A stretch of 45,407 nt of DNA from Chloroflexia bacterium (GTDB lineage Bacteria > Chloroflexota > Chloroflexia > Thermomicrobiales > CFX8): positions 1 to 45,407 of the forward strand of contig JAUIIK010000028.1 of NCBI GenBank assembly GCA_030431755.1, read 5' to 3'. Positions 13,683 through 31,157 of this stretch are shown here, one piece after another (position 1 is the stretch's first letter; every line of letters starts with the position of its first letter). Below the pieces are notes generated by a model. It did no database searches. It was not told the origin of the DNA and was given only the letters and a program-made list of their open reading frames with translations. Position numbers and translations under genes: made by a program.

Positions 13683-13751
13683 CCGAGCGCCTGCCAATCA
13701 CTGAAGGCTGGCTGCTCCCAGGGCCCGAGTGCCCACGGAAGGAACCGCACC

Positions 13752-16538
13752 ATGTTGAGCAGAATCGACGGAGGCAACTCCACCCACCGCAGGCCGGGCG
13801 GCACGCGCATCCTCGCGATTGCCGCCGCTGGCGTGACCAGCATCGCCCTGATCTTCGCGATGATTCTCCAGGCGAGGGCGGCTGAACCCGCCAACTCCTA
13901 CTTCGAGTCGACCTGGCAGCGGACCGACGACCCGGTCGAAAGCGGGCTCGTCAGCCGCACCTGGATGTGGGGCCCGGAAGGCTTCACCGGCGAGATGGCC
14001 GAGGAATACGGCGAGAGCCCCGGCGGCGAGCGCGTCGTCCAGTACTTCGACAAGAGCCGCATGGAGATCACCGATCCAGCGGCCCCGACCAACTCTGTCT
14101 GGTACGTCACCAACGGCCTGCTGGTCGTTGAGCTGGTGACCGGCCGGATGCAGCTGGGCGACAACAGCTTCACCCAGTACAACCCCGCCACAGCGAATGT
14201 GGCCGGCGATCAGGGCATCCCGAACGGTCCGACCTACGCCACGATGGCCGGTCTGCTGAATGCTCCGGCACTCGCTGACGGCGCGACGGTCAGCCAGCGT
14301 ATCGACAGCAGCGGCACCGTCACCGACGATCCGTCGCTGACGAGCTTCGGCGTGACGGCGGCCTACCGCGTCACCGAGCCGGGCATCGACCACCAGGTCG
14401 CCTCGCCCTTCTGGGACTTCATGAACTCCAGCGGGACCATCTACGAGAGCGGCGCGTACGTCAACGCGCCGATGTTCCTGAGTCCCTTCTACGCCACCGG
14501 CTACCCGATCAGCGAGGCCTATTGGGCTAACGTCAGCGTCGGCGGTGTCCAGCAGGACGTTCTGTTGCAGTGCTTCGAGCGCCGCTGCCTGACCTACACG
14601 CCGGGCAACGCGCCAGGCTGGCAGGTCGAGGCCGGCAACGTCGGCCAGCACTACTATGAGTGGCGCTACCAGCAGGTTGGCGGCCAGCCGACAGCGACGG
14701 CGACGCCGCCAGTAACCGGCACCGCCGAGCCATCGCCAACCGAACCGCCGGTCACCGCTACCGCCGAACCAACGGCGACCGGGACGCCCCCGGCAAGCCC
14801 GACGCCGACGATCCCGCCGACAGCTACGGCGACGCCCGAACCAGCCCTCAACTACCAGTACCTGGCGCAGTTCGGCGAACAATGGGACCCGGCGACGACG
14901 ATTGACCAGCCGCGCGGCGTTGCCGTTGGCAATGGTTATGTCTACGTCGTCGAATTCACCGAGGATCGTGTCCAGAAGTTCACCACCGACGGCGTCTGGG
15001 TCGCCAGCTGGGGCGAGCTTGGCAATGGACCCGGCCAGTTCAACAACCCCTTCGATGTCGAGGTCGGCCCCAACGGCAATGTCTGGGTCGTCGACGCCAA
15101 CAACAACCGCATTCAGAAGTTCGATCCCGACGGCAACTACCTGACCCAGTTCGGCGTCGCCGGCAGCGGCCCGGGCGAGTTCGCCGGCCCGACCGGGATG
15201 GCCTTCTCGAGCAGCGGCGAGATCTACGTCGCCGACTACGCCAATCACCGCATCCAGCGCTTCGACGCCAACGGCGGCTTCATCGCCGAGTACGGCAGCC
15301 TGGGTACCGGCGACGGCCAGTTCGAGCTGCCCTCGGCAATCGCCTTCGACGCCAACGACAACTTCTACGTCGCCGACACGCAGAACCACCGTATCCAGAA
15401 GTTCAACGCCGTCGGCAACTACATCACCAAGTGGGGCGTGCAGGGCGCCGGCAACGGCGAGTTCGACGTGCCGCTCGGTGTCGTCATCAGCGGCAACAAC
15501 CGCGTCTACGTCACCGACACCGGCAACATCCGCGTCCAGGCCTTCGACCTGAACGGCGGTTACCTCGGTAAATTCGGTGACCCCGGCACGGACTACGGCC
15601 AGTTCGGCGAGCCGATTGCCATCGATGTCGATAGCTCCGGCTACCTCTATGTCGCTGACATGGACAACGGCAACGTCCAGAAGTTCGACGATGTCGGCAA
15701 CTACCTCGACCGCTGGAGCGACGACCGCAAGGGGCGCTTCGGCGACGAGACCTACGGCCTCGCCCGTGACGTGGACGGCAACATCTACGTCACCGATCCG
15801 ACCTTCGCCCGCGTCCTCAAGTTCACGGCCACCGGCGAATACCTGCTGGAGTTCGGTGAGCAGGGTGTCAACACCGGCCAGTTCATGACGCCGCACGGCA
15901 TCGTCGCCAGCAACGACGGCTACGTCTTCGTCGCCGACGCCAGCAACGACCGCATCGTCAAGTACACCCAGGATGGCGTCTATGTGACTGAGTGGGGTAG
16001 CAGCGGCGGCGGCAACGGCCAGTTCCAGGGGCCAATCGGCGTCGCGCTCGACGCTGCCGGCAACGTCTATGTGACGGACACATCCAACGATCGCATTCAG
16101 AAGTTCACCGCCGATGGCATCTACATCACGCAATGGGGAGAACCGGGTTCAGGCAATGGCCAGTTCGACCTCCCCGGCGGCATCGAGATCTACGGCGAGC
16201 GCGTCTACGTCACGGACATCTACAACCACCGTGTCCAGGGCTTCGACCTCGACGGCGTCTACATCGGCCAGTGGGGCAGCTTCGGCAGCGGCAATGGCCA
16301 GTTTGACGAACCCGGTGGCATCGGTATCGATAGCTACGGCTTCATCTACATCGCCGACAGCCGGAACGACCGAGTGCAGAAGTTCACTCCCGACGGCCTC
16401 TACCTGACCCAGTTCGGTAGCACCGGCGCAGGCAACGGCCAGTTCGATGGTCCCGTCCGGGTCGAGGTTGCCGCCAACGGCTACGTCTACGTCCTCGACT
16501 ACGGCAACAACCGCATCCAGGTGTTCACGGGAAGCTAG
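13752..16538 (+). CDS. Membrane-anchored protein: WQRTD domain, Pro/Thr linker and twelve NHL blades (paralogue 1)
   Basis: The 928 residues start at ATG 13752 behind GGAAGGA. A signal anchor lies at about 19-42. An unnamed domain spans about 45-306 with landmarks STWQRTDDPV, RTWMWGPEGF, VQYFDKSRMEI, YVTNGLLVVELVTG, FWDFMNSSGTIYESG and QCFERRCLTYTPGNAPGW, ending GNVGQHYYEWRY. A linker of Pro, Thr, Ala and Glu (307-364) follows. Residues 366-928 are twelve NHL repeats of about 47 residues (pattern GxGNGQFxxPxGIAxD..GxVYVxDxxNxRIQKF). NHL units fold as beta-propeller blades, usually six per ring, so two rings are expected; blade 7 is shortened (DDRKGRFGDE). The protein is exported and probably binds proteins or glycans; no catalytic residues are evident. 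Two full paralogues follow in the window. Confidence 0.92.
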   Translation: MLSRIDGGNSTHRRPGGTRILAIAAAGVTSIALIFAMILQARAAEPANSYFESTWQRTDDPVESGLVSRTWMWGPEGFTGEMAEEYGESPGGERVVQYFDKSRMEITDPAAPTNSVWYVTNGLLVVELVTGRMQLGDNSFTQYNPATANVAGDQGIPNGPTYATMAGLLNAPALADGATVSQRIDSSGTVTDDPSLTSFGVTAAYRVTEPGIDHQVASPFWDFMNSSGTIYESGAYVNAPMFLSPFYATGYPISEAYWANVSVGGVQQDVLLQCFERRCLTYTPGNAPGWQVEAGNVGQHYYEWRYQQVGGQPTATATPPVTGTAEPSPTEPPVTATAEPTATGTPPASPTPTIPPTATATPEPALNYQYLAQFGEQWDPATTIDQPRGVAVGNGYVYVVEFTEDRVQKFTTDGVWVASWGELGNGPGQFNNPFDVEVGPNGNVWVVDANNNRIQKFDPDGNYLTQFGVAGSGPGEFAGPTGMAFSSSGEIYVADYANHRIQRFDANGGFIAEYGSLGTGDGQFELPSAIAFDANDNFYVADTQNHRIQKFNAVGNYITKWGVQGAGNGEFDVPLGVVISGNNRVYVTDTGNIRVQAFDLNGGYLGKFGDPGTDYGQFGEPIAIDVDSSGYLYVADMDNGNVQKFDDVGNYLDRWSDDRKGRFGDETYGLARDVDGNIYVTDPTFARVLKFTATGEYLLEFGEQGVNTGQFMTPHGIVASNDGYVFVADASNDRIVKYTQDGVYVTEWGSSGGGNGQFQGPIGVALDAAGNVYVTDTSNDRIQKFTADGIYITQWGEPGSGNGQFDLPGGIEIYGERVYVTDIYNHRVQGFDLDGVYIGQWGSFGSGNGQFDEPGGIGIDSYGFIYIADSRNDRVQKFTPDGLYLTQFGSTGAGNGQFDGPVRVEVAANGYVYVLDYGNNRIQVFTGS

Positions 16539-16555
16539 GCGGCCCTCACCTCCAA

Positions 16556-16586
16556 CCCCCTCTCCCAATGCTGGGAGAGGGGGCTT
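16556..16586 (+). terminator. Stem-loop terminator after propeller gene 1
   Basis: CCCCCTCTCCCA (16556-16567) pairs with TGGGAGAGGGGG (16572-16583) over 12 bases with a four-base loop, 18 bases after the stop codon. A weak T-rich tail (CTTTCC) follows. The same sequence family also occurs in the 9013-9192 repeat. Confidence 0.75.
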
Positions 16587-16622
16587 TCCGGAGTGGACGA
16601 CGAGAGAGGAAGCGATCCAGTG

Positions 16623-16748
16623 ATGAAGAAGGTTCAGAAGGACTCCGAGACGAAGACTGAGAAGCAGCCCCGTAAGGCAACGAATCCCGGCGGCCAGCTG
16701 CGTCGGAAGCGGCCGCTGTCCAAGCGCATGGTGGCGTCCACGACGTAA
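16623..16748 (+). CDS. Small basic protein (41 residues)
   Basis: ATG 16623 (GTG 16620 also in frame) follows GAGAGGAAGCG. The product begins MKKVQKDSETKTEK and ends SKRMVASTT, with about a third Lys or Arg, and contains no membrane segment. It lies between two propeller paralogues on the same strand. A ribosomal or nucleic-acid-binding role would fit such composition, but this is a guess, and it could be a chance frame. Confidence 0.4.
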   Translation: MKKVQKDSETKTEKQPRKATNPGGQLRRKRPLSKRMVASTT

Positions 16749-16758
16749 GGCTGAAGCA

Positions 16759-16838
16759 GGGAATAGGTGACAGGTAACAGGGAACAGCAGAAGTCGAGAG
16801 GAGTCGCTCTGCTATCCCCTGTCACCTATCCCCTTCCC
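16759..16838. repeat. AACAGGG-type inverted repeat (family C copy 2)
   Basis: GGGAATAGGTGACAGGTAAC with AGGGAACAGCAG (16759-16790) is the imperfect reverse complement of CTGCTATCCCCTGTCACC with TATCCCCTTCCC (16809-16838), with an 18-base loop. It ends about 29 bases before the start codon of the second propeller gene, so it lies in its leader. Confidence 0.75.
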
Positions 16839-16866
16839 CAGAGGTCCCTTGGAAGGAACCAATCTC

Positions 16867-19692
16867 GTGAGCGAGACAACATCGACGAAGGAGCGCAAGA
16901 GGCGCTCAAAGGGCGAGCTGGTGAAGCGGGTGCTGCTCGTCTTTGCCATCTGGGCGGCCGTTGGGCTCGGTATCCGGCTGGCGATCAACGTCTTCGCGGC
17001 CGAGCCGGCCACGACTGCGTTCAACCAGACCTGGCAGCGGACCGATGATCCGGTCGCGCTGGGGCTGGTTGACAGGACCTGGATGTGGGGGCCGGACGGC
17101 TTCACGGCCGCGCTGAGCGAGGAGTACACAGAGGGCCCCGGCGGCGAACGCACCGTCCAGTACTTCGACAAGAGCCGTATGGAGGACAATGGCTTTCGCG
17201 CGACGGCGCCCTGGGATGTCACCAACGGCTTGCTCGTCGTGGAGCTGGTCACTGGTCAGATGCAGGTCGGCGACAACGACTTCGAGCAGCGTCCTGCCGC
17301 CGAGATCAACGTCGCCGGGGATGCCGATGATCCGACCGGCGTCCAGTACGCCGGGCTCGCCGCGCTCCTCGACGCTCCCGCGCTGGCCGGTGGCCAGTCG
17401 GTCACCCAGCGGGTCGACCGCAGTGGGAATGTGGCCGACGATCCGTCGCTGGCGAGCTTCGGTGTGACGGCGGCCTACCGCCTGACTGAGCCCGGTATCG
17501 ACCATCAGGTCGCCTCGCCCTTCTGGGAGTTCATCAATGCAAACGGCACGGTCTACGAAGATGGCGGCTACGTCGACGCCCTGATGTTCCTGAGCCCCTT
17601 CTACGCCACCGGCTACCCGATCACCGAGGCCTACTGGGCCAACGTCAAGGTCGGCGGCGCCTACCAGGATGTCCTGTTGCAGTGCTTCGAGCGTCGCTGC
17701 CTGACCTACACGCCGGGTAACACGCCCGGCTGGCAGGTCGAGGCCGGGAACGTCGGCCAGCACTATTACAGCTGGCGCTACGGAGCTGCGTCTGACGAGC
17801 CGGGATCAGACGGCACTCAGACGCCGCCGGCCGACAGCACAGCAGAAGCGTCTCCAACCGACGTGCCGGGGACCGGCACCGCCGAGCCCTCGGCAACCGC
17901 ACCAGCAGACCCGAGCACCGAACCGACGATATCGCCAACGACGACGCAGGAGCCCGTGCCCTCACCCACTGCCGAGCCGGGCCCAACAGCCACCGCCACG
18001 CAGGAACCTGCGCCGCGCTACAGCTTCGCGGGCAAATTCGGCGAGGCTTACGACCCTGACACGCGCTTCGATGAGTTGAGCGGCATCGGTGTCGGACCTG
18101 ATGGCTCCATTTATGTACTCGAAGAGGGCGACCCCCGCGTTCAGCAGTACACGTCCGAGGGGCTCTTCGTCAGGATGCTGGGTGAGTCAGGGTCAGGCGC
18201 AGGCCACGTCGACCACCCACGTGCCATCGCCTTCGATAAGCAAGGCAACATCTACGTCAGTGACTGGCCGAACGGCCGCATCGTGAAGTACGGCCCGAAG
18301 GGCAACTACCGCGGTCAGATCGGTTCCTACGGCTTCGGTGACGGTGAACTCTCAACCGTTTACGGTATTGCGTTCGACAGCCAGGGCTATCTCTATGTCG
18401 TCGACACGAACAGCGACCGTGTTCAGAAATTCGACCGGGACGGCAACTTCATCGCGAAGTGGGACAAGGGCACCGGCGCGGGACCTGGCCAATTCAGCAA
18501 TCCACTTGGACTGGCCATCGACGCGAAAGACATCGTCTATGTCGTTGATTCGTACAACAACCGCGTTCAGAAATTCGACACGGACGGTACCTATCTCGAC
18601 GAATGGGGCACTGGCGGTAGCGGCAACGGTCAGTTTAGCGCGCCGACCGGGATCGCCATTAGCGCAAGTGGTGTCGTCTATGTCGCCGATACCGGCAATA
18701 ACCGCATTCAGGCGTTCCAGACCGACGGCACACATGCCGGTAGCTGGGACGGGACTGGCTCCCATCTGGACCCGTTCCGCTATCCAGAGGGTGTCGCTGT
18801 AGACCGCGCCGGCAACGTCTATGTGACTGATCCGAACGCTAATCGCGTGCAGAAATTCAGCGCGAACGGCGCCTATCTCGATGGCTGGCTGGGCGGGCAT
18901 CGAGGCCGTTTAGAAGCCCACGCAGCAGCGATGACGCTGGATGAAGACGGCAATGTCTACATCGCCGACGCCGGCCGCGTTCAGAAGTTCGACCCGGCCG
19001 GCCGGTTTATCTGGGAAGCCACCGAGCTGAACACGCCGGTCGATCTGGAAGTGCTTACGGCTCTTGTCGCCAGCCCGGACGGTTATCTCTATGTCGCCGA
19101 TGGTGACCTGAATAAGATCGTCAAATTCACCCTCGACGGTGACTTCGTCCAGGAGTGGTCCGCCGCCGACAACATCTCTGGCCTGACGCTCGACGACGAC
19201 GGCGACCTTTACAGCATGGATATCAGCTCCAGGCGACTACGCAAGCTCTCGCCCAGTGGCTCGGTGCGCGCGACCTGGGACATGAGCGGGCTCCTAAGCG
19301 CGCCCATCGACATCGCCATCGACGGCGACCGGCTCTACGTGGCCGACATGGATCCGACCAAGCTTTCCGGTGTCCCGACCGGCCCGGCCGATCTCCCGGC
19401 TATCAAAGTCTTCGATCTCGATGACCGCAGCCCCCTGGGCGCCATCGGCGGTCCGGATCAGTTCGACGCGCCCTTCGGCCTGGGGCTCGACGGGGCGGGT
19501 TACGTCTACGTCGCGGATGTTGATGGCGACACCGTCCAGCAGTTCGCGCCGGATGGGACCTACCTGGCGACCATCGGTGGTCCCGGCAACGGGAACGGCC
19601 AGTTCCGTACACCGACCGCCGTTCAGATCGCCTCCGATGGCACGCTCTATGTGCTGGATACCCACAACTTCAGGGTGCAGATCTTCCGCTAG
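16867..19692 (+). CDS. Membrane-anchored protein: WQRTD domain, Pro/Thr linker and twelve NHL blades (paralogue 2)
   Basis: The protein is 941 residues from GTG 16867, selected because it has the same GGAAGGA leader as paralogue 1. A basic N-terminus (KERKRRSKGELVKR) and one transmembrane helix (about 20-42) precede the WQRTD domain (about 45-303, QTWQRTDDPV to QHYYSWRY, again with CFERRC). A long PTAE-rich linker (305-382) and twelve NHL units (383-941) follow. Several blades are degenerate: blade 7 (HRGRLEAH) and blades 8-10 lack the consensus GNGQF turn, and blade 10 has a proline-rich loop insertion. It ends in QIFR with no cell-wall sorting signal. It is probably a surface-exposed binding protein; function unknown. 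Confidence 0.92.
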   Translation: MSETTSTKERKRRSKGELVKRVLLVFAIWAAVGLGIRLAINVFAAEPATTAFNQTWQRTDDPVALGLVDRTWMWGPDGFTAALSEEYTEGPGGERTVQYFDKSRMEDNGFRATAPWDVTNGLLVVELVTGQMQVGDNDFEQRPAAEINVAGDADDPTGVQYAGLAALLDAPALAGGQSVTQRVDRSGNVADDPSLASFGVTAAYRLTEPGIDHQVASPFWEFINANGTVYEDGGYVDALMFLSPFYATGYPITEAYWANVKVGGAYQDVLLQCFERRCLTYTPGNTPGWQVEAGNVGQHYYSWRYGAASDEPGSDGTQTPPADSTAEASPTDVPGTGTAEPSATAPADPSTEPTISPTTTQEPVPSPTAEPGPTATATQEPAPRYSFAGKFGEAYDPDTRFDELSGIGVGPDGSIYVLEEGDPRVQQYTSEGLFVRMLGESGSGAGHVDHPRAIAFDKQGNIYVSDWPNGRIVKYGPKGNYRGQIGSYGFGDGELSTVYGIAFDSQGYLYVVDTNSDRVQKFDRDGNFIAKWDKGTGAGPGQFSNPLGLAIDAKDIVYVVDSYNNRVQKFDTDGTYLDEWGTGGSGNGQFSAPTGIAISASGVVYVADTGNNRIQAFQTDGTHAGSWDGTGSHLDPFRYPEGVAVDRAGNVYVTDPNANRVQKFSANGAYLDGWLGGHRGRLEAHAAAMTLDEDGNVYIADAGRVQKFDPAGRFIWEATELNTPVDLEVLTALVASPDGYLYVADGDLNKIVKFTLDGDFVQEWSAADNISGLTLDDDGDLYSMDISSRRLRKLSPSGSVRATWDMSGLLSAPIDIAIDGDRLYVADMDPTKLSGVPTGPADLPAIKVFDLDDRSPLGAIGGPDQFDAPFGLGLDGAGYVYVADVDGDTVQQFAPDGTYLATIGGPGNGNGQFRTPTAVQIASDGTLYVLDTHNFRVQIFR

Positions 19693-19842
19693 CGTTCAAC
19701 CGAAACCACAGAGATATCGCGACCTCCGTCCCGTCCTCACGACAGAAAGTGAAGACGGGGCGGCTCTTCGGCACGCGGGAGTTCGCCCAGATGCGCTAGG
19801 CTCAGGCGTGAGCAATGAGCAGTACGACCGAAAGGCGTGACC

Positions 19843-20070
19843 ATGTCGGGAAGTACGGAGAATCGGGAGATGTTGCAGCGCCTCTTCGCGTCGGCGAACA
19901 TGGCATTGTCTTCCCGCGACCTCGCCATCGTCAGCGAGCTCTACGCCAGCTTCTCCGGTCAGCGCGACCGGCTCGCCGGCGCAGCCCGGCCCGAAACCGA
20001 GCCGATGATCATCCCGGCCTTCGAGCGCGTCTATCAAGAGAGGCAGGCCGGTGATGAGCGGGCGAGCTAA
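19843..20070 (+). CDS. Small GatC/AtzG-like putative partner of the amidase
   Basis: The protein is 75 residues from ATG 19843 (AAAGG seven bases upstream). It is all-helical, with LQRLFASANMALSSRDLAIV, then a loop, then PETEPMIIPAFERVY. The length, the two helices plus the EPM/F tail, and the position directly before an amidase-signature enzyme resemble the small subunits GatC or AtzG (DUF4089), which wrap around their GatA-type partner. Sequence similarity is too weak to be certain. It overlaps the amidase start by 17 bases, so the two are translationally coupled. Confidence 0.6.
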   Translation: MSGSTENREMLQRLFASANMALSSRDLAIVSELYASFSGQRDRLAGAARPETEPMIIPAFERVYQERQAGDERAS

Positions 20071-21466: not shown

Positions 21467-21517
21467 CGACGGCCACGGACTCCTAGTGCTTCCCGGGGCG
21501 CAAATTCTCATCCACCA

Positions 21518-21675
21518 CGTCATCCCGAACGGAGGCTCCGCGCAGTTGAAGGATCTAGCACGGCTACCGGAGCCAAGCGGGGAAGCATTGTGAACGTAGC
21601 CGGTCTCGCTGCCTCGGAAGCTCCTGTGTCCGACGTAGATCCTTCGGCTGCGCCGAGCCTCCGCTCAGGATGACG
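21518..21675. repeat. Palindromic element family A, copy 4
   Basis: The left arm CGTCATCCCGAACGGAGGCT... and the right arm, ending ...GCTCAGGATGACG, are reverse complements at about 36 of 40 positions. The loop holds no gene. The rest of the 420-base gap from 21467 to 21886 shows nothing else I can support besides the leader of the next gene. Confidence 0.8.
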
Positions 21676-21886
21676 CGATTGGGCTTCTGAAGTTTCCCTG
21701 GGGATCCTGGTAACCCTGGCGCCACAAATCATTCCCAGCATTCCGGCCATCGTGGAAGTACGATATGCGCCTGTCGAACCTGTCCGATAGTGGGTGGGGA
21801 AGCGACACAATATCCTGAGTCTGGCGGGCCCACAGGTCCGCCGGCTGTGTCCATCTTTGTGGTCCGCGACTAGGGAGGAACTCCCG

Positions 21887-24634
21887 ATGATGTTGTTCTC
21901 AGGGCCCGGAATCCGCACGACAAGATATCTCTGGCCAAGCGCCGCCGCGCTGCTCGTGCTGAGCCTCGTGATCCTTTCGGTCTACTCGGCACTGGCCGCG
22001 CCACCCGGCAACGAGCACTTCCAACGTACCTGGCAGCGCACCGACCAGCCCGTTCTCGACGGGCTCGTGGCGCGTACCTGGATGTGGGGGCCGGAAGCCT
22101 TCACTGACGTCGTCCGGGAGCCGTATGCAGAGACTCCGGGCGGTGAGCGCGCCGTCCAGTACTTCGACAAAGCCCGCATGGAGATCACCAATCCTGACGG
22201 CGACGCGGGCAGCATCTGGTACGTCACCAACGGCCTGCTGGTCGTCGAGCTCGTAACCGGCAACATGCAGACGGGCGATGCGGACTTCGAGCCGCGCAGT
22301 CCCGCCCAGGTCAACGTCGCCGGAGATGCCGACGACCCGACTGGACCAACCTACGCGACGTTCGGCGCCCTGCTCGATGCAGCGCCGCTCGCATCCGGCG
22401 CGACGATCAGCCAGCGCGTCGATCGGGAGGGCGACGTGACCAACGATCCCGCGCTCTCGGGGCAGGGTCTGACGGTCGCGATCGTCGACGAGGTCACAAA
22501 CCACGGGATTGCCGGACCCTTCTGGGATTTCATGAATGCCAGTGGCACCGTCTACGAGAACGGGCAGTTCGTCGATAACCAGCTCTTCGAGAATCCGTAC
22601 TTCGCGACCGGCCGGCCGATCTCCGAGGCCTACTGGGCCAACGTGAAGGTCGCCGGAACCTATCGCGATGTCCTGATGCAGTGCTTCGAGCGCCGTTGCC
22701 TGACCTACACGCCGGGCAACCCGGAGGGCTTCGTGGTCGAGGCCGGCAACGTCGGCCAGCACTACTACGCCTGGCGCTACACGCAGACGCCCGTAGACCC
22801 GACTCCGACCGCTACAGCGCCGGTCACGTCCACCGCTACAGGCACCGTGACGGCCTCACCGACGGTCACTGCTACGGCAACCGTGACCGCGACGATGACG
22901 GCCACCGTGACGACAACCCCGACCGAGACCCCCGCGTCCGAGTACAGCTACACCGCCCAGTGGGGTAAGCAGTACCAGCCCTTCACGGCGCTGAAGTCGC
23001 CGGTTGGGGTTGCCGTCGATAGCGATGGCCACCTGTGGACGCTGGATACGCACAACCACCGGCTGATCGAGTACGACGAGAACGGCGTCTACATCCGGAC
23101 GGTCGGCAGCGAGGGCGCCGCCCAGGGGCAATTCGAGTTCCCAGTCGATGCCGCTTTCAGCGCCGACGGCCGTCTGTTCGTCACCGACCAGGGTAACAAT
23201 CGGGTCCAGGTCTTCAACTCGGATGGCGAGTTTCAGACGGCCTTCGGCTCGCTCGGGGCCGGGAACGGGCAGTTCGACGCTCCGACCGGGATCGCCATTA
23301 GCGGCCAGACAGTCTACGTGACCGACCTCAGCAACGACCGAATCCAGTTCTTCAACCTCGATGGCGTCTACCAGGGTCAGTTCACGGCCAACGGGATGAC
23401 CCATCCATCGGATATCGCCGTTGCGCCGGATGGGTTGCTCTACGTCACCGACTACCAGGCGCACGTCATCTGGGAGTTCAACGCCGACACCAGCTACCGG
23501 GGAGTTTTCGGTGGCGAGGGCTCCGGGACGCGCCAGTTCAAGAATCCTTCCGGCATCGTCATCGACGCCGATGGCTACATTTACATTGCTGAAAACGGCA
23601 ATGAGCGCGTCCAGGTGCTCGCGCCGAACACTGCCTACTTCGGCGAGTGGGGCAGTCAGGGCTTCGGTCTCGGTCAACTCTATGCTCCTCGCGGGCTGGC
23701 GCTCGACAACGACGGTAATATCTACGTCGCCGACTATGGCAACAGCCGCATCCAGAAGTTCACGACGAGCGGACAGTTCCTCTTCGAGGTGCACGACGCC
23801 AGTCGCGGCCAGTTCGGGAACGTCCTCGCTATCGCGCAGGACCGCAACGGCTACCTGTTGACGATCGATGCCAACAAGGAGGCCTACGACTCCGGCTCGA
23901 TCAGCCGCTACACCGCCGACGGCATCCCGCTCGACGTGCTGAGCAGCATGCGCCCGGAGCGCGGCCAGTACGACCAGCTCGCCGGCGTGGCGGTCAACCT
24001 CACCAGCGGCGAGATCTACGTCACCGACCGCATCTCCAATCGGATTCAGCGCTTCAGCGCGACCTGGCAGTACCTCGGCAAGTGGGGCACGGCTGGGACA
24101 GGTCCGGGCCAGTTCAACGGTCCGACGGGTATCGCTATCGATGCCGATGGTTATGTCTATGTCGCTGACGCCGGGAACAACCGCGTCCAGAAATTCGATG
24201 CCAACGGCGTCTTCCTCGATCAGTGGGGCGGCGTCGGCAGCGGCAACGGCCAGTTCGTCCAGCCGGCCGGCATCGTGACCTACGGCGAGCGCATCTACGT
24301 CAGCGATAACGGCAACCATCGGGTGCAGGTATTCGACCGCGACGGCGATTACCTCGGCCAGTGGGGTGGCATGGGCGCGGAACCGGGACAGTTCAACGGC
24401 CCGGCCGGCGTCGCCGTGACATCGGACGGTAAGTACGTCCTCGTCGTCGACGTCGGGAACAATCGGGTGCAGATCTTCAGTCCCGAAGGGATGTACCTGG
24501 CGTCGTTCGGCACGGCCGGTAGCGATCCGGGGCAGTTCAACGTGCCCTACGGCATCGCGATTGACGCGGAGGGCAATGCCTACGTCACCGACCTCGGCAA
24601 CTACCGCGTCCAGAAATTCAGCCCTACGCCGTAG
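21887..24634 (+). CDS. Membrane-anchored protein: WQRTD domain, Pro/Thr linker and twelve NHL blades (paralogue 3)
   Basis: The protein is 915 residues from ATG 21887, chosen because GGGAGGAA lies just upstream and a signal anchor (about 14-36, SAAALLVLSLVILSVYSALA) starts there. The WQRTD domain covers about 40-298 (RTWQRTDQPV, RTWMWGPEAF, QYFDKARMEI, QCFERRCLTYTPGN, QHYYAWRY). The linker is very Thr-rich (TATATVTATMTATVTTTPTE type). Twelve NHL units run from about 352 to 915, again with an irregular seventh (ASRGQFGNV) after six regular ones. Family C-terminal ends differ, but blade order is conserved with the other two paralogues, so the domain set duplicated as a whole. Confidence 0.92.
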   Translation: MMLFSGPGIRTTRYLWPSAAALLVLSLVILSVYSALAAPPGNEHFQRTWQRTDQPVLDGLVARTWMWGPEAFTDVVREPYAETPGGERAVQYFDKARMEITNPDGDAGSIWYVTNGLLVVELVTGNMQTGDADFEPRSPAQVNVAGDADDPTGPTYATFGALLDAAPLASGATISQRVDREGDVTNDPALSGQGLTVAIVDEVTNHGIAGPFWDFMNASGTVYENGQFVDNQLFENPYFATGRPISEAYWANVKVAGTYRDVLMQCFERRCLTYTPGNPEGFVVEAGNVGQHYYAWRYTQTPVDPTPTATAPVTSTATGTVTASPTVTATATVTATMTATVTTTPTETPASEYSYTAQWGKQYQPFTALKSPVGVAVDSDGHLWTLDTHNHRLIEYDENGVYIRTVGSEGAAQGQFEFPVDAAFSADGRLFVTDQGNNRVQVFNSDGEFQTAFGSLGAGNGQFDAPTGIAISGQTVYVTDLSNDRIQFFNLDGVYQGQFTANGMTHPSDIAVAPDGLLYVTDYQAHVIWEFNADTSYRGVFGGEGSGTRQFKNPSGIVIDADGYIYIAENGNERVQVLAPNTAYFGEWGSQGFGLGQLYAPRGLALDNDGNIYVADYGNSRIQKFTTSGQFLFEVHDASRGQFGNVLAIAQDRNGYLLTIDANKEAYDSGSISRYTADGIPLDVLSSMRPERGQYDQLAGVAVNLTSGEIYVTDRISNRIQRFSATWQYLGKWGTAGTGPGQFNGPTGIAIDADGYVYVADAGNNRVQKFDANGVFLDQWGGVGSGNGQFVQPAGIVTYGERIYVSDNGNHRVQVFDRDGDYLGQWGGMGAEPGQFNGPAGVAVTSDGKYVLVVDVGNNRVQIFSPEGMYLASFGTAGSDPGQFNVPYGIAIDAEGNAYVTDLGNYRVQKFSPTP

Positions 24635-24659
24635 CGCGAACCGCAGGCTCAATTGACCG

Positions 24660-24694
24660 ACGAGGGTGGGGTTTGCTCCACCCTCGTTGCTCTT
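24660..24694 (+). terminator. Stem-loop terminator after propeller gene 3
   Basis: ACGAGGGTGG (24660-24669) pairs with CCACCCTCGT (24678-24687), followed by TGCTCTTTC. It lies 26 bases beyond the stop codon. The sequence resembles one arm of the GTAGGGGTGG element family, so this terminator may derive from such an element. Confidence 0.75.
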
Positions 24695-24899
24695 TCGGCG
24701 AATCCCCTCTGCATTGACCGGTATCCACGAACGATTGTAGGGGCGTGGCTTGTTGGCTTATGGCGGCCATTGAGAAACCACGACCATCATTTCTGGTGCC
24801 TGGACGATATGGCGCTGGGCCGGTTGGCCATAGGCTGTGGAGACAGCCGGTAAGCCGGGGCGGCGACGCTCCGATCTACGTACCCCGGCCAGCGGCAAT

Positions 24900-24918
24900 A
24901 TCGGTTAACTGGACGATG
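24900..24918 (+). promoter_or_regulatory. Shared upstream motif, copy 1
   Basis: ATCGGTTAACTGGACGATG matches ATCGGTCAACTGGACGATG at 25586-25604 in 18 of 19 positions. Both sit upstream of genes for exported or membrane products (about 65 and 95 bases before the start codons). It could be a promoter element or operator; no function is proven. The remaining 24695-24984 shows no gene. Confidence 0.45.
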
Positions 24919-24984
24919 TCCTTTCGCGCCCTGGACCCGACTATGGAGACACAGGGAACGCACCACACAGGAGAGGACAGACAG

Positions 24985-25155
24985 ATGGAAATCACACGAA
25001 ATCACGTCAACGAGCAGGTGACGACGATCGACGCCGCCACGCTCGACGATGACCAGTTCAACCAGCTGATCAACGGCATCGACGCGCGTAACCCGCTCGT
25101 GCTCTATCTGATCCTCGTCTTCATGGTCATCGCCGGCGTCAGCATCGCCCTCTAG
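24985..25155 (+). CDS. Small tail-anchored membrane protein (56 residues)
   Basis: ATG 24985 follows GGAGAGGACAG. A polar N-terminal part (NEQVTTIDAATLDDDQFNQL) precedes one C-terminal transmembrane helix (LVLYLILVFMVIAGVSIAL), so the product is a 56-residue single-pass protein with the polar end probably cytosolic. I do not recognise the family. It shares a 19-base upstream motif with the 25698 gene and may be co-regulated with it. Confidence 0.65.
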   Translation: MEITRNHVNEQVTTIDAATLDDDQFNQLINGIDARNPLVLYLILVFMVIAGVSIAL

Positions 25156-25278
25156 CCCCCACAACCTCTCCCCCCATTTGTCCCGGACGGGAGCTCGATT
25201 CGATCGGGTTCCCGTCTCTTTTGTTGCGCGCGGTTTTGCCCGTAGGTGCACGTGAAATAGAGGCTCCGTCCCACTGTT

Positions 25279-25432
25279 TGGCATCCCGAGTGGAGGCTTC
25301 GCGGAGAGAGATCTAGCGACGTGCGTGTGAGGTGAAGGTGGCACTCGATTCGTTGGGCAGATTTCTGTCATTGCGAGTCCACAGTGCCGCTCGTAGATCC
25401 CTCACTTCGCTGAGCCTCCACTCGGGATGCCA
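25279..25432. repeat. Palindromic element family A, copy 5
   Basis: The left arm TGGCATCCCGAGTGGAGGCT..GATCTA (25279-25315) and the right arm TAGATCCCTC..GGGATGCCA (25394-25432) are imperfect reverse complements, with a centre of about 78 bases. It differs from the others in the outermost bases (TGGCAT instead of GTCAT) but keeps GGAGGCT and GGGATCTA. Confidence 0.75.
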
Positions 25433-25538
25433 ATCGGGGAGTTGTGCGGCTGCCCTGGTTCGGCGGCCGGGGCGTCCAGGATGGCGACCGCGCCGGTCGC
25501 CCCTCCCACCCCACACGCTTGCCGTCTCATACGCACGG

Positions 25539-25556
25539 ATACGTACCGGTACGTAT
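25539..25556. promoter_or_regulatory. Perfect 18-bp palindrome, candidate operator
   Basis: ATACGTACCGGTACGTAT is a perfect palindrome 142 bases upstream of the 25698 start codon. Related half sites lie around it (ATACGCAC before, CGTACGCAT after). A dimeric regulator could bind here. Besides this, the repeat at 25279-25432 and the 19-base motif at 25586, the 542-base gap 25156-25697 shows no gene. Confidence 0.45.
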
Positions 25557-25585
25557 GCCGGGAGGCGTACGCATCCCAAACCGAA

Positions 25586-25604
25586 ATCGGTCAACTGGAC
25601 GATG
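25586..25604 (+). promoter_or_regulatory. Shared upstream motif, copy 2
   Basis: ATCGGTCAACTGGACGATG is the second copy of the motif at 24900-24918 and lies 93 bases before the start codon of the three-domain secreted protein gene. One mismatch separates the two. Confidence 0.45.
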
Positions 25605-25697
25605 GCGGCGAGGGGCATTCCCGGAATGATGTGAATGTAAGGCAAACGCGCCGCAGGATGGCACCGGGACACACCGGACGGGATGGGGAGAGAGACG

Positions 25698-27866
25698 ATG
25701 AGCAGCTTCGCGGGACGCAACGACCGGATATCGAACGATCTGACTGGACAGAGAAAGGACGCGCGCACGATGACGACGCGAGAGATGACGATCAGCCGCC
25801 GCCGCTGGCTCCGGATCATGACCGCCGTGCTGGGCGTCCTGCTCTTCACGCTCCAGGCGCTGCCGGCGCTGGCCTCGAACGCAGCGCTCGACAACCTCTC
25901 TTACCGCCTCGGCAAGGACGCGACAGGCAGCGAGTACATGCAGGCCAAGAGCGTCCGGGGCAACGGCGTGCAGTTTGCGCCGGTAGCGCCGGCCAGTGGT
26001 CCGATCAGCTTCGCGGACGTAGCCGCTGGTGGCTCCGACCGCATCGGGAGCCTCCAGGGTGCTGCCGACACGCTGCGCGGCTCGCAGGAACCGGTCGGCG
26101 CTGCCGCCAAGCAGCTCGCCGTGGCGAACGCCGGCGACGCGCCGAACAACGATTCCGAGCTGGCGCAGACCGCCGAGCCTGAATTGATCATCAGCGACGA
26201 CTTCGACAACAGCGGCGCTTCACGGCTCTGGACCGGCGAAACCAACGGCAACGAAGCGTTCGTCGATGAAGAGGGCGGCTGGTACGTCATGCTGGTCCAG
26301 CCGGGCGTGCTGCTCCCGGTTCTGGCAACCGGCGACATCGAGATCACCGACGGCGCGATCGTCGCCGACGCGCGCTTCTACGGTCAGGATGGCGGCGCTG
26401 GCGACCTGGGCGTCATCGGCCGCTCGGCAAGCGATTACAGCGTCTACTACTACTGCATGATCGACGTCTCCGGCGGCGCGGGCTGCTACCTCCGGAACGC
26501 TGAAGGCTGGACCGAGCTCTTCTACGCCGCTCCCGGCGAGATCACCCGCGGCCAGATGGACCGCCTGATCCTCGAAATCTCGAACGACACGCTGACCTTC
26601 GCCGTCAATGACCAGGTCGTCGGCTCAATCAACGACGCCGGGCTGACCGGCGGCTCCTGGGGCATCGCGACAACCTGCTACGAGGGCTACTGCACCGGCA
26701 ACTTCGACTTCGTCGACATCTACAGCTACGGCCCGCTGGCCAATGAAGCGACGACCTCGCTTATCGCGACTGATTTCGACGGCGCGCAGCACGACAGCTT
26801 CTTCACCGGCGAGGGCGACTGGGGCTTCGCAAGCATCAACGACGGCTGGTACACGGTTTCGCTTGCGCCGGGCGTTTACTTCCCGAACATGATCTACGGC
26901 ACCGAGGGCATGACCGGCGGCACGCTGACGGCTGACATCGCCATCGACGGCGAGGGCGCAGTCGGCCTCGTCTCCCGCCTCAGCTACAACGACGAAGGCT
27001 ACGCCAGCTACTACGTCTGCTGGGTCAACAGCTACGCCTTCGCCAACTGCCACGTCGTCGTCGACGGCGAGTGGTACGAGATCGACGGCGCGGCCGGCGC
27101 GGAAGTAACGCTTGAAGAGATCAACCGTCTCTCGCTGGGCATCGTCGGCGAACAGCTTGTCTTCGCGGTCAACGGTCAGGTCGTCGCAGATATCACCGAC
27201 GGGACGCTCCAGACCGGTGCGATGGGCTTCTACCACGAGGCCTTCGGCGACGCGAGCCAGAACTTCAACAGCTTCGTCGACGCGGTCAACGTCGAGACTG
27301 TCGGTGGCGGCGCGGCCTCCGGGGCCGCCATCGGCTCGGACCTGGACTCCGACAACGACCTGGGGCTCTACACCGGGAGCGGCGACTGGGGCTTCGCGGA
27401 CTTCGTCTACGAGGGCGTCTACACGGTCGAGGTCAACGCGGGCTACTACCTGGCCCTGCCGATGGCCGACACCGCCTTCATCGAGTCCGGCGTGATGACG
27501 ACGGTTGTCGACTTCGGTGGCGCTGGCACGACCGGCTTGATCGCCCGGCACCAGTACGGCGAGGCCGGCGAGAGCTTCTACTTCTGTGGCGTCGATACGG
27601 ACGCCTACGCGGCCTGCAACCTGGTTCTTGACGGTCAGATCTACTCGCTCGGCTTCACTCCTGAGCCGCTCCAGCTTGGCGATATGACGGAGATGAGCCT
27701 GATGGTCGAGGGTTCCGAAATCACCTTCTTCGTCGACGGTGTGGCGGTGGTCGAAGCGTTCGACACGTCGCTTGCGGGCGGCAACTGGGGCTTCTATAAC
27801 GACGCCAACGCCGATGGCGAAGGTTCCTGGGCAGACACCGACCTGGTCATCATCGAACAGCTCTAA
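25698..27866 (+). CDS. Secreted protein with three repeated concanavalin-like domains, each with a C-x9-C pair
   Basis: The protein is 722 residues from ATG 25698 (GGGGAGAGAG upstream). A twin-Arg-like or basic leader (SRRRWLR) and hydrophobic stretch to LPALASNA (about 40-62) form a signal peptide. A low-complexity Ala-rich region (to about 165) precedes three domains of about 175-190 residues starting near 167 (DDFDNSG), 358 (TDFDGAQ) and 546 (SDLDSDN). Each repeats FTGxGDWGFA, GWYTV..PGVYFP, a GLVSR/GVIGR strand, YYxC-x9-C, then LxxxVxxxxLxFxVNxQVV and GxWGxxxxxY. The order of strands resembles the concanavalin/LamG jelly-roll used by many extracellular proteins. The function is unknown; glycan or surface binding is plausible. 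Confidence 0.85.
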   Translation: MSSFAGRNDRISNDLTGQRKDARTMTTREMTISRRRWLRIMTAVLGVLLFTLQALPALASNAALDNLSYRLGKDATGSEYMQAKSVRGNGVQFAPVAPASGPISFADVAAGGSDRIGSLQGAADTLRGSQEPVGAAAKQLAVANAGDAPNNDSELAQTAEPELIISDDFDNSGASRLWTGETNGNEAFVDEEGGWYVMLVQPGVLLPVLATGDIEITDGAIVADARFYGQDGGAGDLGVIGRSASDYSVYYYCMIDVSGGAGCYLRNAEGWTELFYAAPGEITRGQMDRLILEISNDTLTFAVNDQVVGSINDAGLTGGSWGIATTCYEGYCTGNFDFVDIYSYGPLANEATTSLIATDFDGAQHDSFFTGEGDWGFASINDGWYTVSLAPGVYFPNMIYGTEGMTGGTLTADIAIDGEGAVGLVSRLSYNDEGYASYYVCWVNSYAFANCHVVVDGEWYEIDGAAGAEVTLEEINRLSLGIVGEQLVFAVNGQVVADITDGTLQTGAMGFYHEAFGDASQNFNSFVDAVNVETVGGGAASGAAIGSDLDSDNDLGLYTGSGDWGFADFVYEGVYTVEVNAGYYLALPMADTAFIESGVMTTVVDFGGAGTTGLIARHQYGEAGESFYFCGVDTDAYAACNLVLDGQIYSLGFTPEPLQLGDMTEMSLMVEGSEITFFVDGVAVVEAFDTSLAGGNWGFYNDANADGEGSWADTDLVIIEQL

Positions 27867-27889
27867 CCTCTCTCGGCCTCCTCATCCCG

Positions 27890-27930
27890 GACCCCCGCAA
27901 CGGTCACGCCGTTGCGGGGGTCTAGCTGTT
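27890..27930. terminator. Bidirectional stem-loop terminator between convergent genes
   Basis: GACCCCCGCAACGG (27890-27903) pairs with CCGTTGCGGGGGTC (27909-27922) over 14 bases with a five-base loop, followed by TAGCTGTTGTTT on the plus strand. It lies between the 25698-27866 gene and the converging minus-strand beta-helix gene. Confidence 0.85.
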
Positions 27931-27936
27931 GTTTAG

Positions 27937-29397
27937 CTATGCCGCCGGGATGGTGTTGGGCGCTTCGTAGGCGGTGCACTTGGCGTGGTTCGTCACCCAG
28001 CGGTTTGCGCCGGTGTAGAAACTGACACAGGTCAGCAGGTCGCCGTCGTCGGGCAGGGTGTGCTCGAAACGCGGCGCGGCGCAGGGGCGTCTGGAGGTGT
28101 AGCTCACCTGGCCGGTCCACGGGTTGATGCAGAAGCTCTCGCCCGCCAACTCGGTTAGCTGTACCTGGCCGGCGTTGCAGACGCCGCTCAGCGGGCTCGT
28201 CACCAGACCGGTGTAGCTGCTGACGCAGATGGGGTAGGTCGGCTCGGACTGCGTTTCCTCAGGTACTTCGACGCTGCCGATGTCACAGGCGCTGCCCTGG
28301 GGCCGCTCCGTGCCGGTCTGATCGACAGCCGTCGGGCAGGATGGCGCGCCATCGATGGCCGGGCTACCGTCGCCGGGCATGTGTGTCTCGGTCGGGCCGC
28401 CGTTGTCCTGGAGTGGGCCGAGCTGCGGGTCGGTTTCCGGCATGTCGCCGGTCTGGATCAGATTGCAGTAGCTGATGTCATCGCTGATATTCTCACCTAG
28501 CGATTCCGTGGCCGTGCCCTGGCAATTGTCTCCGGATGGATTGTCGGCGAGAATCGTCGCCCGCAAGTAGACGATGCCGCTGGCGTTGTAGTAACCGCCG
28601 CCGAGATTCGGATCGCCTGAGTTGTCGCTAATCGTGCTGTTCGTCACCGTTACAGTGCCACCGGAATGGAAGAAGCCCCCACCAATTGCTGCTGTATTGC
28701 CACTGATGGTGCTGTTCGTGATGACCAGTGGCCCGTTTTCATTGTAGATACCACCACCGGAATGGTCGAAGCCACCGGATGTTGCTGTATTGCCACTAAT
28801 TGTGCTGTTAGTGAGCGTGAGCGTTCCGCCGTTGTTGTAGATACCGCCACCGTTCGTGCCTGAATTGCCGCTGACGGTGCTGTTCGTCAGTGCGACGCCG
28901 CCGCCGTTGTTGTAGATACTGCCGCCGTCGCTGGCTGCGCCGTTGGCGTTGGTCAGCGTGATGTTCACGAGCTCAAGCTCACCGCTGCTGGTGACGAAGA
29001 AGTGGCGTGTCGTGCCCTGGGCATCGAGCGTGATCAGCTCGCCGCCGTCAACCACTGTGTTCTCGGTAATCACTTTCTGCTCCACCAGGGCAACAACTAC
29101 CGGGCTTGGACCGCAGTTGAAGGTAACCGTACCCCCGCCGGCAAGGGCTCCCGTGAGCGCCGCATCGGTGCAGCTCGCGGGCGTGCCGTCGCCAACGACG
29201 CCAGCAGCCACAGCCGGACTCGCCGGGCTCAAGGTGGCGAGGCCCGCCAGCATGATCAGAATCGTTAGTCCGCTCAAGAGGCGGCCTATGGTGCATTCTC
29301 CTTCAGGTAAGTTGACGCATAGCCAAAGTGAATTGTAGGTAGTGAGCGACGCTACGCCATGGCCGGTCAGTCCTGTGTGTCTCTGCTGCGAGTGCAC
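27937..29397 (-). CDS. Secreted parallel beta-helix protein with C-terminal Cys-pair repeats
   Basis: The frame runs to GTG 29397, but a better signal peptide begins near GRLLSGLTILIMLAGLATL; GAAGGAG stands at 29301-29295 on the minus strand and the in-frame codon at normal spacing is ATA (29289), with TTG 29277 next. The body holds tandem LTNSTISGNTAxxGGGIYN-type units typical of right-handed parallel beta-helix repeats and choice-of-anchor Q proteins (LQDNGGPTETHMPGDGSPAI, then DQTGTERPQG-CDIGSVE). After that come three C-x15/16-C units, each with xTG after the first Cys (CVSSYTG, CINPWTG, CVSFYTG). It is exported; adhesion or polysaccharide binding is plausible but unproven. Confidence 0.82.
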   Translation of the reverse strand: MHSQQRHTGLTGHGVASLTTYNSLWLCVNLPEGECTIGRLLSGLTILIMLAGLATLSPASPAVAAGVVGDGTPASCTDAALTGALAGGGTVTFNCGPSPVVVALVEQKVITENTVVDGGELITLDAQGTTRHFFVTSSGELELVNITLTNANGAASDGGSIYNNGGGVALTNSTVSGNSGTNGGGIYNNGGTLTLTNSTISGNTATSGGFDHSGGGIYNENGPLVITNSTISGNTAAIGGGFFHSGGTVTVTNSTISDNSGDPNLGGGYYNASGIVYLRATILADNPSGDNCQGTATESLGENISDDISYCNLIQTGDMPETDPQLGPLQDNGGPTETHMPGDGSPAIDGAPSCPTAVDQTGTERPQGSACDIGSVEVPEETQSEPTYPICVSSYTGLVTSPLSGVCNAGQVQLTELAGESFCINPWTGQVSYTSRRPCAAPRFEHTLPDDGDLLTCVSFYTGANRWVTNHAKCTAYEAPNTIPAA

Positions 29398-29502
29398 ATG
29401 CCGTCATGGTTCTGTAGCGCGGCGCTGGAAACTGTTGTGACTTCGGCACGGTTGCGAGGTTAGATTGATGGTGGTGAAGCATCCAGGTGAAAGGGGTAGC
29501 CG

Positions 29503-29682
29503 ATGGCATCCCAGCAGGACGAATCGCGCAATTGGAGCGGAGCAGAGGGGCTGGCAATCCCGGCCGGGCTGTTCATCGGCATCGGTGTTGGGATGGTGAT
29601 CGGCAACGTCGCCGCGGGCGTCATGCTCGGCCTTGGCGCTGGGTTTCTCGTGATGATGCTCGTGCGCATGGTCGCGCGCTAG
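29503..29682 (+). CDS. Small Gly-rich membrane protein (59 residues)
   Basis: ATG 29503 is preceded by AAAGGGG. A polar first third (MASQQDESRNWSGAEG) is followed by two hydrophobic segments rich in small residues (IPAGLFIGIGVGMVIGNVAA and GVMLGLGAGFLVMMLV), as in glycine-zipper hairpins that span or associate in membranes. It is too short for family assignment. The gene lies between divergent-end genes of exported proteins. Confidence 0.6.
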   Translation: MASQQDESRNWSGAEGLAIPAGLFIGIGVGMVIGNVAAGVMLGLGAGFLVMMLVRMVAR

Positions 29683-29727
29683 CCGGTCTCTCGCGTCTCG
29701 GGCTCCCGGCGTGATCGATGAGAAATA

Positions 29728-29752
29728 CGGGCCGGGCTAGATTCCCGGCCCG
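29728..29752 (-). terminator. Terminator of the 29787-31157 gene
   Basis: CGGGCCGGG (29728-29736) pairs with CCCGGCCCG (29744-29752). Read on the minus strand, the hairpin is followed by TATTTCTC, a U-rich tail, which fits a rho-independent terminator for the minus-strand gene. Confidence 0.75.
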
Positions 29753-29786
29753 CAGGCACGTCAAGACTGTCAGGTTGAGTCGCGCC

Positions 29787-31157
29787 TTAGCCGCAGGGGA
29801 AGGTCTCCCAGTAGGCGAAGTCAGGCTCTCCGTTGATCAGCGAGATGGCCCAGAACTCCCAGCGCATGGGGTCGGAGCTACGGGCGATCGCGGCCCAGAT
29901 GCCCTCGATCCCGGCGACCGCGTAGTAGCGCTCGACGGTGCACTCCTCGGGCCGTGGCAGATCGCCGATCGTGTTGTTCGGCTCGACGAAGTAGCCGAAG
30001 GTCTGGAAGGCGCGCGTGTCGAGCTTGTCGCCGGTCGGCGTGGTGCCCTGGTAGATATCGGCGCTGCCGACCAGGTGGTACCAGTAGGTGTTGCTCGCGC
30101 GCTGCTGCACGCCGCAGATCCGGCCGGTGATATCGGCCGCAACGTCGAAGCCGTAGTAGTCGCGCAGCCCCGGTAGCTGCCAGGGGATCGCCGTCGTCTG
30201 GACGTCGTTGTAGTCAACGCAGGCCTTGAGCGGCGTCTGGCCGCCGGTGAGCGCGGCGCTGTAGTCCATCGTCAGCCCCTGCATCTCGCCGTAACGCCAG
30301 TCATAGTAGTGGCGGCCCACGTTGCCTGCTTCGACGCGCCATTCGGGAGCGTTCTGCGGCGTGTAGGTCAGCACCCGGCGCTCGAAGACCTGGACCAGCA
30401 CCTGCTGCTGTGTGCCGCCAACGCGGACGTCAGCCCAGTAGGCTTCGGTCAGCGGCAGACCGGTTGCGAAGAAGGGGTCCTGAAAGAGCAAGCCCTCGCT
30501 GTAGCCGCTGTCCCAGATCGTGCCGCTGGAGTTCATGAAATCCCAGAAGACCGAGGCGACCGTGTGGTTCGTCGCTGCGACGTAGTGCGCAGCCGTCACG
30601 CCCTGACCTGCCAACGCGCCGTCATCGCCGACCTCGCCGGCGCGGTTCACCGTCGCAGTGAGCGTCTGGCCTGTGGTGGCGGGGCTCGCGCCCATCAGCG
30701 TCTCGAAGGTTGCGTAGGTCGGGCCGTCGGGGTCATCGGCGTCGCCGGCGACGTTGACCTCGGCTGGGCCGGTGAAGAGGACGATCGAGCCGTCGCTCAT
30801 CGGGATCTGGCCAGTCATCAATTCCCGCGCCAGCAGGCCGTTCGTGACGTACCAGACGCTCCCCGTGTCGCCGTTGGGGTTGGTGATCTCCATGCGGCTC
30901 TTATCGAAGTACTGGACCTGCCGCCAGCCGCCGGGCGACTCCCAGTAGGGCTCGCTGAGGGCTTCCGTGAAGGGTTCCGGACCCCACATCCAGGTGCGGT
31001 TGGCCTGGCCTTCCAGCACCGGCAGATCGGTCCGTTCCCACACTTCGTCGAATTCGGCGTTCGCGACGGCCCCATGCGCGCTTGTGACCGTCAATCCGGC
31101 CAGCGACGCAGCGACCGCCGACAACGCGATCGCGACTCGCAACACTCGCTCGATCAT
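29787..31157 (-). CDS. Secreted protein with a WQRTD-type domain and a distinct C-terminal domain (no propeller)
   Basis: The 456 residues have a Sec signal peptide (to about 30, TVTSAHGAVA) and a WQRTD-family domain at about 35-288: VWERTDLPVLEGQ, RTWMWGPEPF, VQYFDKSRMEI, YVTNGLLARELMTG, FWDFMNSSGTIWDSG, VFERRVLTYTPQNAPEW and GNVGRHYYDWRY. The paired Cys of the propeller paralogues is absent (VFERRV). A unique C-terminal region of about 165 residues follows, with Cys residues in LKACVDYN, GRICGVQQ, RPEECTVER and a final ETFPCG, and WYHLVGSADIYQG. No linker or propeller is present. It is probably exported into the medium or periplasm-equivalent space; function unknown. A terminator hairpin follows at 29728-29752. 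Confidence 0.85.
   Translation of the reverse strand: MIERVLRVAIALSAVAASLAGLTVTSAHGAVANAEFDEVWERTDLPVLEGQANRTWMWGPEPFTEALSEPYWESPGGWRQVQYFDKSRMEITNPNGDTGSVWYVTNGLLARELMTGQIPMSDGSIVLFTGPAEVNVAGDADDPDGPTYATFETLMGASPATTGQTLTATVNRAGEVGDDGALAGQGVTAAHYVAATNHTVASVFWDFMNSSGTIWDSGYSEGLLFQDPFFATGLPLTEAYWADVRVGGTQQQVLVQVFERRVLTYTPQNAPEWRVEAGNVGRHYYDWRYGEMQGLTMDYSAALTGGQTPLKACVDYNDVQTTAIPWQLPGLRDYYGFDVAADITGRICGVQQRASNTYWYHLVGSADIYQGTTPTGDKLDTRAFQTFGYFVEPNNTIGDLPRPEECTVERYYAVAGIEGIWAAIARSSDPMRWEFWAISLINGEPDFAYWETFPCG

Follow-up and report, generated by a model that had tools for sequence, protein, structure and literature searches.

A putative LGFP-type wall-attachment module on exported proteins of Chloroflexia

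Four exported proteins encoded within a 45,407-nucleotide contig of a Chloroflexia bacterium (hereafter the window; assembly GCA_030431755.1, contig JAUIIK010000028.1) share an N-terminal domain that probably is a two-repeat LGFP-type module holding its exported partner, most likely non-covalently, on the wall of the cell that produces it. A wall-attachment tag is the best reading because some 50 unrelated exported carriers are without other anchors and because kindred repeats are present on wall enzymes.

The shared domain and its carriers in the window

The initial annotation had proposed that the four proteins have an unnamed exported domain in common, and this is borne out by the confirmed open reading frames and by alignment. 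Their N-terminal domains (about 262 residues) align over 258-264 residues with 55-73% identity and E-values of 1e-92 to 1e-146, far beyond chance. The motifs by which the domain had been marked were all found (W-x-R-T-D, RTWMWGP, QYFDK, VTNGLL, FWDFMN and GNVG-HYY-WRY), with protein 2 having FWEFIN for FWDFMN. Also as first described, a Pro/Thr linker leads in proteins 1 to 3 to NHL repeats (about 12 units of 47 residues; PF01436, E-values of 4e-78 to 6e-51, 168-254 bits against a cut-off of 20), while the C-terminal part of protein 4 differs, having 167 residues with 4 Cys and no match among the other sequences of this analysis. The features of the window are as follows, with the generic and pooled repeat profiles being those of the next section.

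13752..16538, + strand: exported protein 1, 928 aa; signal peptide, shared domain, Pro/Thr linker and about 12 NHL repeats (ORF, PF01436 match)
13878..14669, + strand: shared domain copy 1, putative double LGFP-type module (alignment; second repeat matched at 14391-14648 by the independent generic-repeat profile)
14832..16535, + strand: NHL region of protein 1, period 47 aa, about 12 units (PF01436, periodicity)
16867..19692, + strand: exported protein 2, 941 aa, GTG start; shared domain, linker and NHL repeats
16996..17781, + strand: shared domain copy 2, sister of copy 1 (73% identical; second repeat matched at 17503-17760)
18016..19689, + strand: NHL region of protein 2 (PF01436, periodicity)
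21887..24634, + strand: exported protein 3, 915 aa; shared domain, linker and NHL repeats
21995..22780, + strand: shared domain copy 3, nearest relatives on other contigs (second repeat matched at 22496-22759)
22943..24631, + strand: NHL region of protein 3 (PF01436, periodicity)
29787..31157, - strand: exported protein 4, 456 aa; signal peptide, shared domain and unique 167-aa C-terminal part with 4 Cys
30801..31073, - strand: putative first LGFP-type repeat of copy 4, domain residues 1-91 (generic-repeat profile E 4.6e-7; pooled repeat profile 2e-7 over 65 columns)
30582..30800, - strand: insert of copy 4 between the repeats, domain residues 92-164 (no match to the repeat)
30288..30581, - strand: putative second LGFP-type repeat of copy 4, domain residues 165-262 (profile match E 2.3e-14; independent profile A4 matches 30312-30575)

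The propellers of proteins 1 and 3 are similar to those of ScyF (NF035926) and lie above its NCBIfam equivalog cut-off. Automatic annotation would consequently misname the proteins at 13752-16538 and 21887-24634 as ScyF, the scytonemin biosynthesis PEP-CTERM protein. The ScyF score stems from the repeats, however, and unlike ScyF the window proteins have an extra N-terminal module. The three NHL proteins also have no hydrophobic C-terminus and, lacking a C-terminal membrane helix, no PEP-CTERM anchor. An 811-codon open antisense frame across the first NHL gene (13698-16133, - strand) is probably no gene but a by-product of high G+C repeat coding.

Internal repeats, their relatives and the predicted fold

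No match to the shared domain was obtained in Pfam, NCBIfam or PHROGs up to E = 1, and the earlier statement that no named family is known for it stands with respect to these collections. The domain does have relatives, however, as both of its halves are tied to a repeat related to LGFP (PF08310). Five weak matches from a search of the genome led to this repeat, which has about 75-97 residues and the pattern ETGH..F..YW...GG..FGYP.TE....VQYFERARFEYHPE..VLLG.LG, and which is paired in tandem in at least 16 further proteins encoded by the genome. Such generic repeats were found on amidase, GH18, GH3, GH5-like, deacetylase-like and choice-of-anchor I proteins and others, as well as on at least three of the genome's four L,D-transpeptidases. 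A profile made from seven generic repeats, none of them taken from a complete domain, detects nearly all domain copies in their second half, including all four of the window. In profile-profile comparison with the generic tandem repeat, the second half of the domain gave an E-value of 2.3e-14 and the first half 4.6e-7, values that apply to single comparisons. None of the controls gave a match; these were the middle part of the domain, reversed columns and 40 versions of the first half with shuffled columns (best 4e-3). A direct profile comparison of one half with the other also gave no match (E 0.27), and the internal repeat is consequently drawn by way of the third-party repeat.

A search for LGFP across 120 genomes of the class returned LGFP-positive L,D-transpeptidases that have two generic-type repeats ahead of the YkuD domain. 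The scanned enzymes score 28-40 bits (maximum 39.7) against an LGFP cut-off of 22, which one GH3 protein also exceeds through its repeats. The repeats of the LGFP-positive L,D-transpeptidases match the generic repeat with an E-value of 7e-18 and the second half of the domain with 5.5e-9, and a pooled repeat profile matches the second half at 3.8e-15 over 71 columns and the first half at 2e-7 over 65 columns. The ties of both halves to these profiles, taken together with the LGFP-positive L,D-transpeptidase repeats, argue at the level of sequence for a double LGFP-type unit, its two repeats being separated by an insert of about 75 residues. The Pfam LGFP model (PF08310) itself has no match up to E = 1 in the four window proteins, and for this reason we file the domain as an LGFP-type relative and not as a member of Pfam LGFP. 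Direct comparisons of its halves with canonical LGFP repeats are not significant (E 0.15 and 0.03), the link running via the intermediate repeats. As for the L-G-x-P signature, repeat 2 has an invariant G205-x-P207 in the signature place with varying Leu and Phe positions, and repeat 1 has W-G-P in an uncertain register.

AlphaFold2 predicted the domain alone with a pLDDT of 96 and a pTM of 0.92, and each half of the model has a helix together with antiparallel strands. The domain was folded by itself because whole protein 4, which was rejected as a fold query, drew only propeller look-alikes through its poorly predicted C-terminal part. An LGFP unit has been described as one helix and a three- to four-stranded antiparallel sheet (PMC11299179), and the predicted secondary structure of both domain halves agrees with this description. 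Foldseek comparison of the domain model with the PDB and with viral models gave no match under E 0.001, and sequence profiles gave only chance matches to PDB chains. A structural second look placed the LGFP domain of MytA (6swz) at the top of the solved structures that were aligned, with a Z of 4.3 (78 residues, 3.7 A; the next was 3.2), a score that is weak in absolute terms as it lies below 8. The best match among viral models was a Gordonia phage amidase, which is also weak (E 0.1). Gordonia phage lysis enzymes are a known setting for LGFP. Each of the two matches is weak alone, yet they agree.

When set beside the LGFP repeats of the Corynebacterium glutamicum mycoloyltransferase MytA and the Gordonia phage lysins, the domain is similar in its helix followed by a small antiparallel sheet, in its tandem arrangement on exported proteins, in the G-x-P of repeat 2 and in its profile homology via intermediate repeats; LGFP also ranks first in two structure libraries, with neither match significant alone. 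The domain differs in its two repeats with a long insert, below Pfam detection, in being mainly limited to the class Chloroflexia and in its roughly 50 copies in one genome with very mixed partners. The tandem repeats of Chloroflexia L,D-transpeptidases (YkuD) and other wall enzymes are found in the same genomes and are alike in their two repeats and in the motifs ETGH, F..YW, FGYP.TE, QYFERARFE and LG.LG, but they are shorter, are without the long insert and are tied to wall-active enzymes more than to general cargo.

Chloroflexia L,D-transpeptidases with two N-terminal LGFP-type repeats (L204, L205, L206, L208, L209 and L211) are, by their sequences, putative wall-crosslinking enzymes with a built-in wall-binding module. 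A choice-of-anchor I protein (L177:829-3249) has a tandem LGFP-type repeat as its sole other recognised part, as if this were the anchor chosen in the lineage.

Copy number, distribution and fusion partners

Searching the window's own genome (5.1 Mb, 97% complete) returned 55 matches, comprising 50 domain copies (48 complete) and the five weak matches to the related repeat. The 50 copies are spread over many contigs in open frames of 305 to 1451 residues, where the domain is N-terminal, internal or C-terminal. The domain is strongly conserved across the whole class; the sampled genomes have 24-44 copies each in the same family, 14-29 in other families of the order and 2-30 in the rest of the class. 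Named carriers are Thermomicrobium, including Thermomicrobium roseum itself, Thermalbibacter, Sphaerobacteraceae and Candidatus Chlorohelix. The sampled genomes of two families, f3 in the order and f10 in the class, had no copy. Outside the class there were matches in only 13 of about 350 sampled genomes, nearly all of them weak.

The family of the same order without the domain (f3; G010, G019; L202, L203) has proteins with canonical LGFP repeats instead. Six IMG/VR contigs (L216-L221), inspected at the domain-bearing ORF only, bear the domain, most of them together with a thermonuclease-like part as in T. roseum. The T. roseum protein that combines the two is WP_012642611, encoded on the megaplasmid NC_011961. 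These contigs are either prophage cargo or bacterial DNA called viral, and the latter may hold because the same partner is present in T. roseum.

About 20 kinds of exported partner are joined to the domain in this genome. Propeller and repeat partners are NHL (8), PD40 (several), Kelch and pentapeptide repeats (2). Partners of enzyme type are subtilisin (2), trypsin-like (2), a clostripain with lamin-tail, D,D-carboxypeptidase S11, beta-lactamase-like, sulfatase and glucose/sorbosone dehydrogenase (GSDH; 2). The remainder includes CAP (3), CHRD, Germane (2), BACON, PKD, DUF192 and a Stig1-like Cys-rich part, and there are also domain-only proteins. Similarly, 82 domain proteins of other genomes have 41 Pfam families, none on more than 6 proteins, with thermonuclease being the commonest (6), and partners in other families of the class include PPC and glycosidase-type domains (GH99, GHL10 and melibiase-like). 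Several charged residues of the domain are invariant or nearly so (D16, K58, R60, E62, D111, R232 and H255), as might be expected if it were an enzyme of an activity as yet unknown. We give this idea almost no credence, as the domain matches no enzyme family and its repeat make-up and wide range of catalytic partners favour a binding module. One twin-arginine protein (L013:1027-2337) has a short Cys/His-rich stretch (CHACNSCHHHAENK) ahead of the domain that is possibly metal-binding.

The breadth of partners and the history of the copies also bear on the suggestion of the initial annotation that repeated duplication within 17 kb points to a surface recognition system tied to NHL propellers. 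Four copies in 17.4 kb amount to mild clustering only (p about 0.025 for 48 copies placed at random). A tree of the 48 complete domain copies of the genome, in which many deep branches are poorly supported, does not place the four in one clade. Instead, copies 1 and 2 are sisters and constitute the only local tandem pair, copy 3 falls with an NHL copy from a different contig, and copy 4 with trypsin-like carriers. Apart from one tandem duplication, the four thus stand together mostly by chance, as members of a large family. NHL carriers are scattered across the tree, and we therefore reject NHL and the domain as a single co-inherited unit; NHL, as one of about 20 partner kinds here, is present on 3 of the 82 domain proteins from other genomes. 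A generic attachment module fits such broad partners better than a recognition system does. Local duplication leading to a surface recognition or adhesion system would account for four copies within 17 kb and for the tandem pair, but we consider it very improbable, given that copies occur genome-wide with unrelated partners, that the four are not one clade and that all copies keep the same invariant residues.

Export, anchors and a proposed role at the cell wall

Export was called with a simple hydrophobicity rule and not with SignalP. By this rule an N-terminal hydrophobic core is present in 47 of the 48 complete copies, the 48th starting with a twin-arginine motif, and in 80 of the 82 domain proteins from other genomes; 4 of 25 other window ORFs also have one. 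Other anchors are scarce on these proteins. In this genome no carrier has a lipobox or a sortase signal with a membrane helix, the lone LPxTG-like string being inside a Kelch repeat without such a helix, and only one carrier has a hydrophobic C-terminus. No C-terminal helix was found among the 82 domain proteins of other genomes, and the SLH domain (PF00395) has no match anywhere in this genome. The genome encodes three sortases, so that other attachment routes exist. SLH domains, sortase signals and other surface anchors resemble the module in the role presumed for it, which is keeping varied exported proteins at the cell surface, but they have no sequence similarity to it.

In most carriers the module is directly behind the signal peptide, which would suit a part that aids folding, maturation or sorting during export, is perhaps removed later and is no anchor. 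We regard a part of this kind as quite improbable because in many carriers, for example the sulfatase, GSDH and subtilisin proteins, the module is at or near the very C-terminus, because it is strongly conserved over the whole class, and because related repeats bind the wall in corynebacteria, where the LGFP repeats of MytA bind peptidoglycan-arabinogalactan (PMC11299179).

If the module were instead a lectin-like domain with an outer polysaccharide (capsule, matrix or food polymer) as its ligand, and not the producer's own wall, the carriers would be matrix or substrate-bound enzymes. The glycosidase-type carriers of other Chloroflexia (GH99, GHL10 and melibiase-like) are in line with such a domain, as are the many conserved aromatic residues, and LGFP ligands are known from one lineage only. 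Against it, the short repeat form occurs on wall-building and wall-cutting enzymes, namely L,D-transpeptidases and amidase, and the carriers have no substrate in common; we therefore think it unlikely.

We infer wall binding, its ligand and its non-covalent mode for the preferred reading of a wall-attachment module, which would operate in the following manner. The module would leave the cell with its partner via Sec or, in a few cases, Tat, and would then bind the partner non-covalently to the cell's own wall, either to peptidoglycan or to a wall polysaccharide. The lineage would use it as a general tag that precedes or follows propellers, proteases, hydrolases and binding domains, and some fifty different proteins would thereby be kept at the wall after secretion. 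In NHL proteins 1 to 3 the Pro/Thr linker would extend the propeller outward, and it is the propeller that would do the protein's work.

Such a tag would matter for the walls of this group. The wall of T. roseum has been described as mostly protein with little peptidoglycan, and its genome paper left the identity and attachment of that protein unsaid (PMC2615216), while the wall of Sphaerobacter thermophilus has been called "unusually rich in protein" (PMC3035262). Nothing about this domain came up when the literature was searched for LGFP in Chloroflexi. A module that is class-wide and has as many as about 50 carriers per genome offers a concrete, testable answer on protein-rich walls. We suggest tentatively, as a possibility that we hold to be somewhat doubtful, that it is chiefly through this module that Thermomicrobia and relatives load their walls with protein, with one non-covalent tag in dozens of copies making secreted proteins a bulk component. 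Dozens of "hypothetical" exported proteins per genome would gain a name and a likely cell location, and LGFP-type wall binding, as inferred here, would extend to a deep-branching phylum.

Two further proteins are encoded between the NHL proteins and protein 4. The first (25770-27866, + strand) is exported, has about 700 residues and consists of three units that resemble one another; one of these is weakly similar to 3-keto-disaccharide hydrolase. The second (27937-29280, - strand) combines a beta-helix, a choice-of-anchor Q domain and a Cys-rich C-terminus with repeated C-V-S-x-Y-T-G-like strings, and it may contain yet another surface-attachment part.
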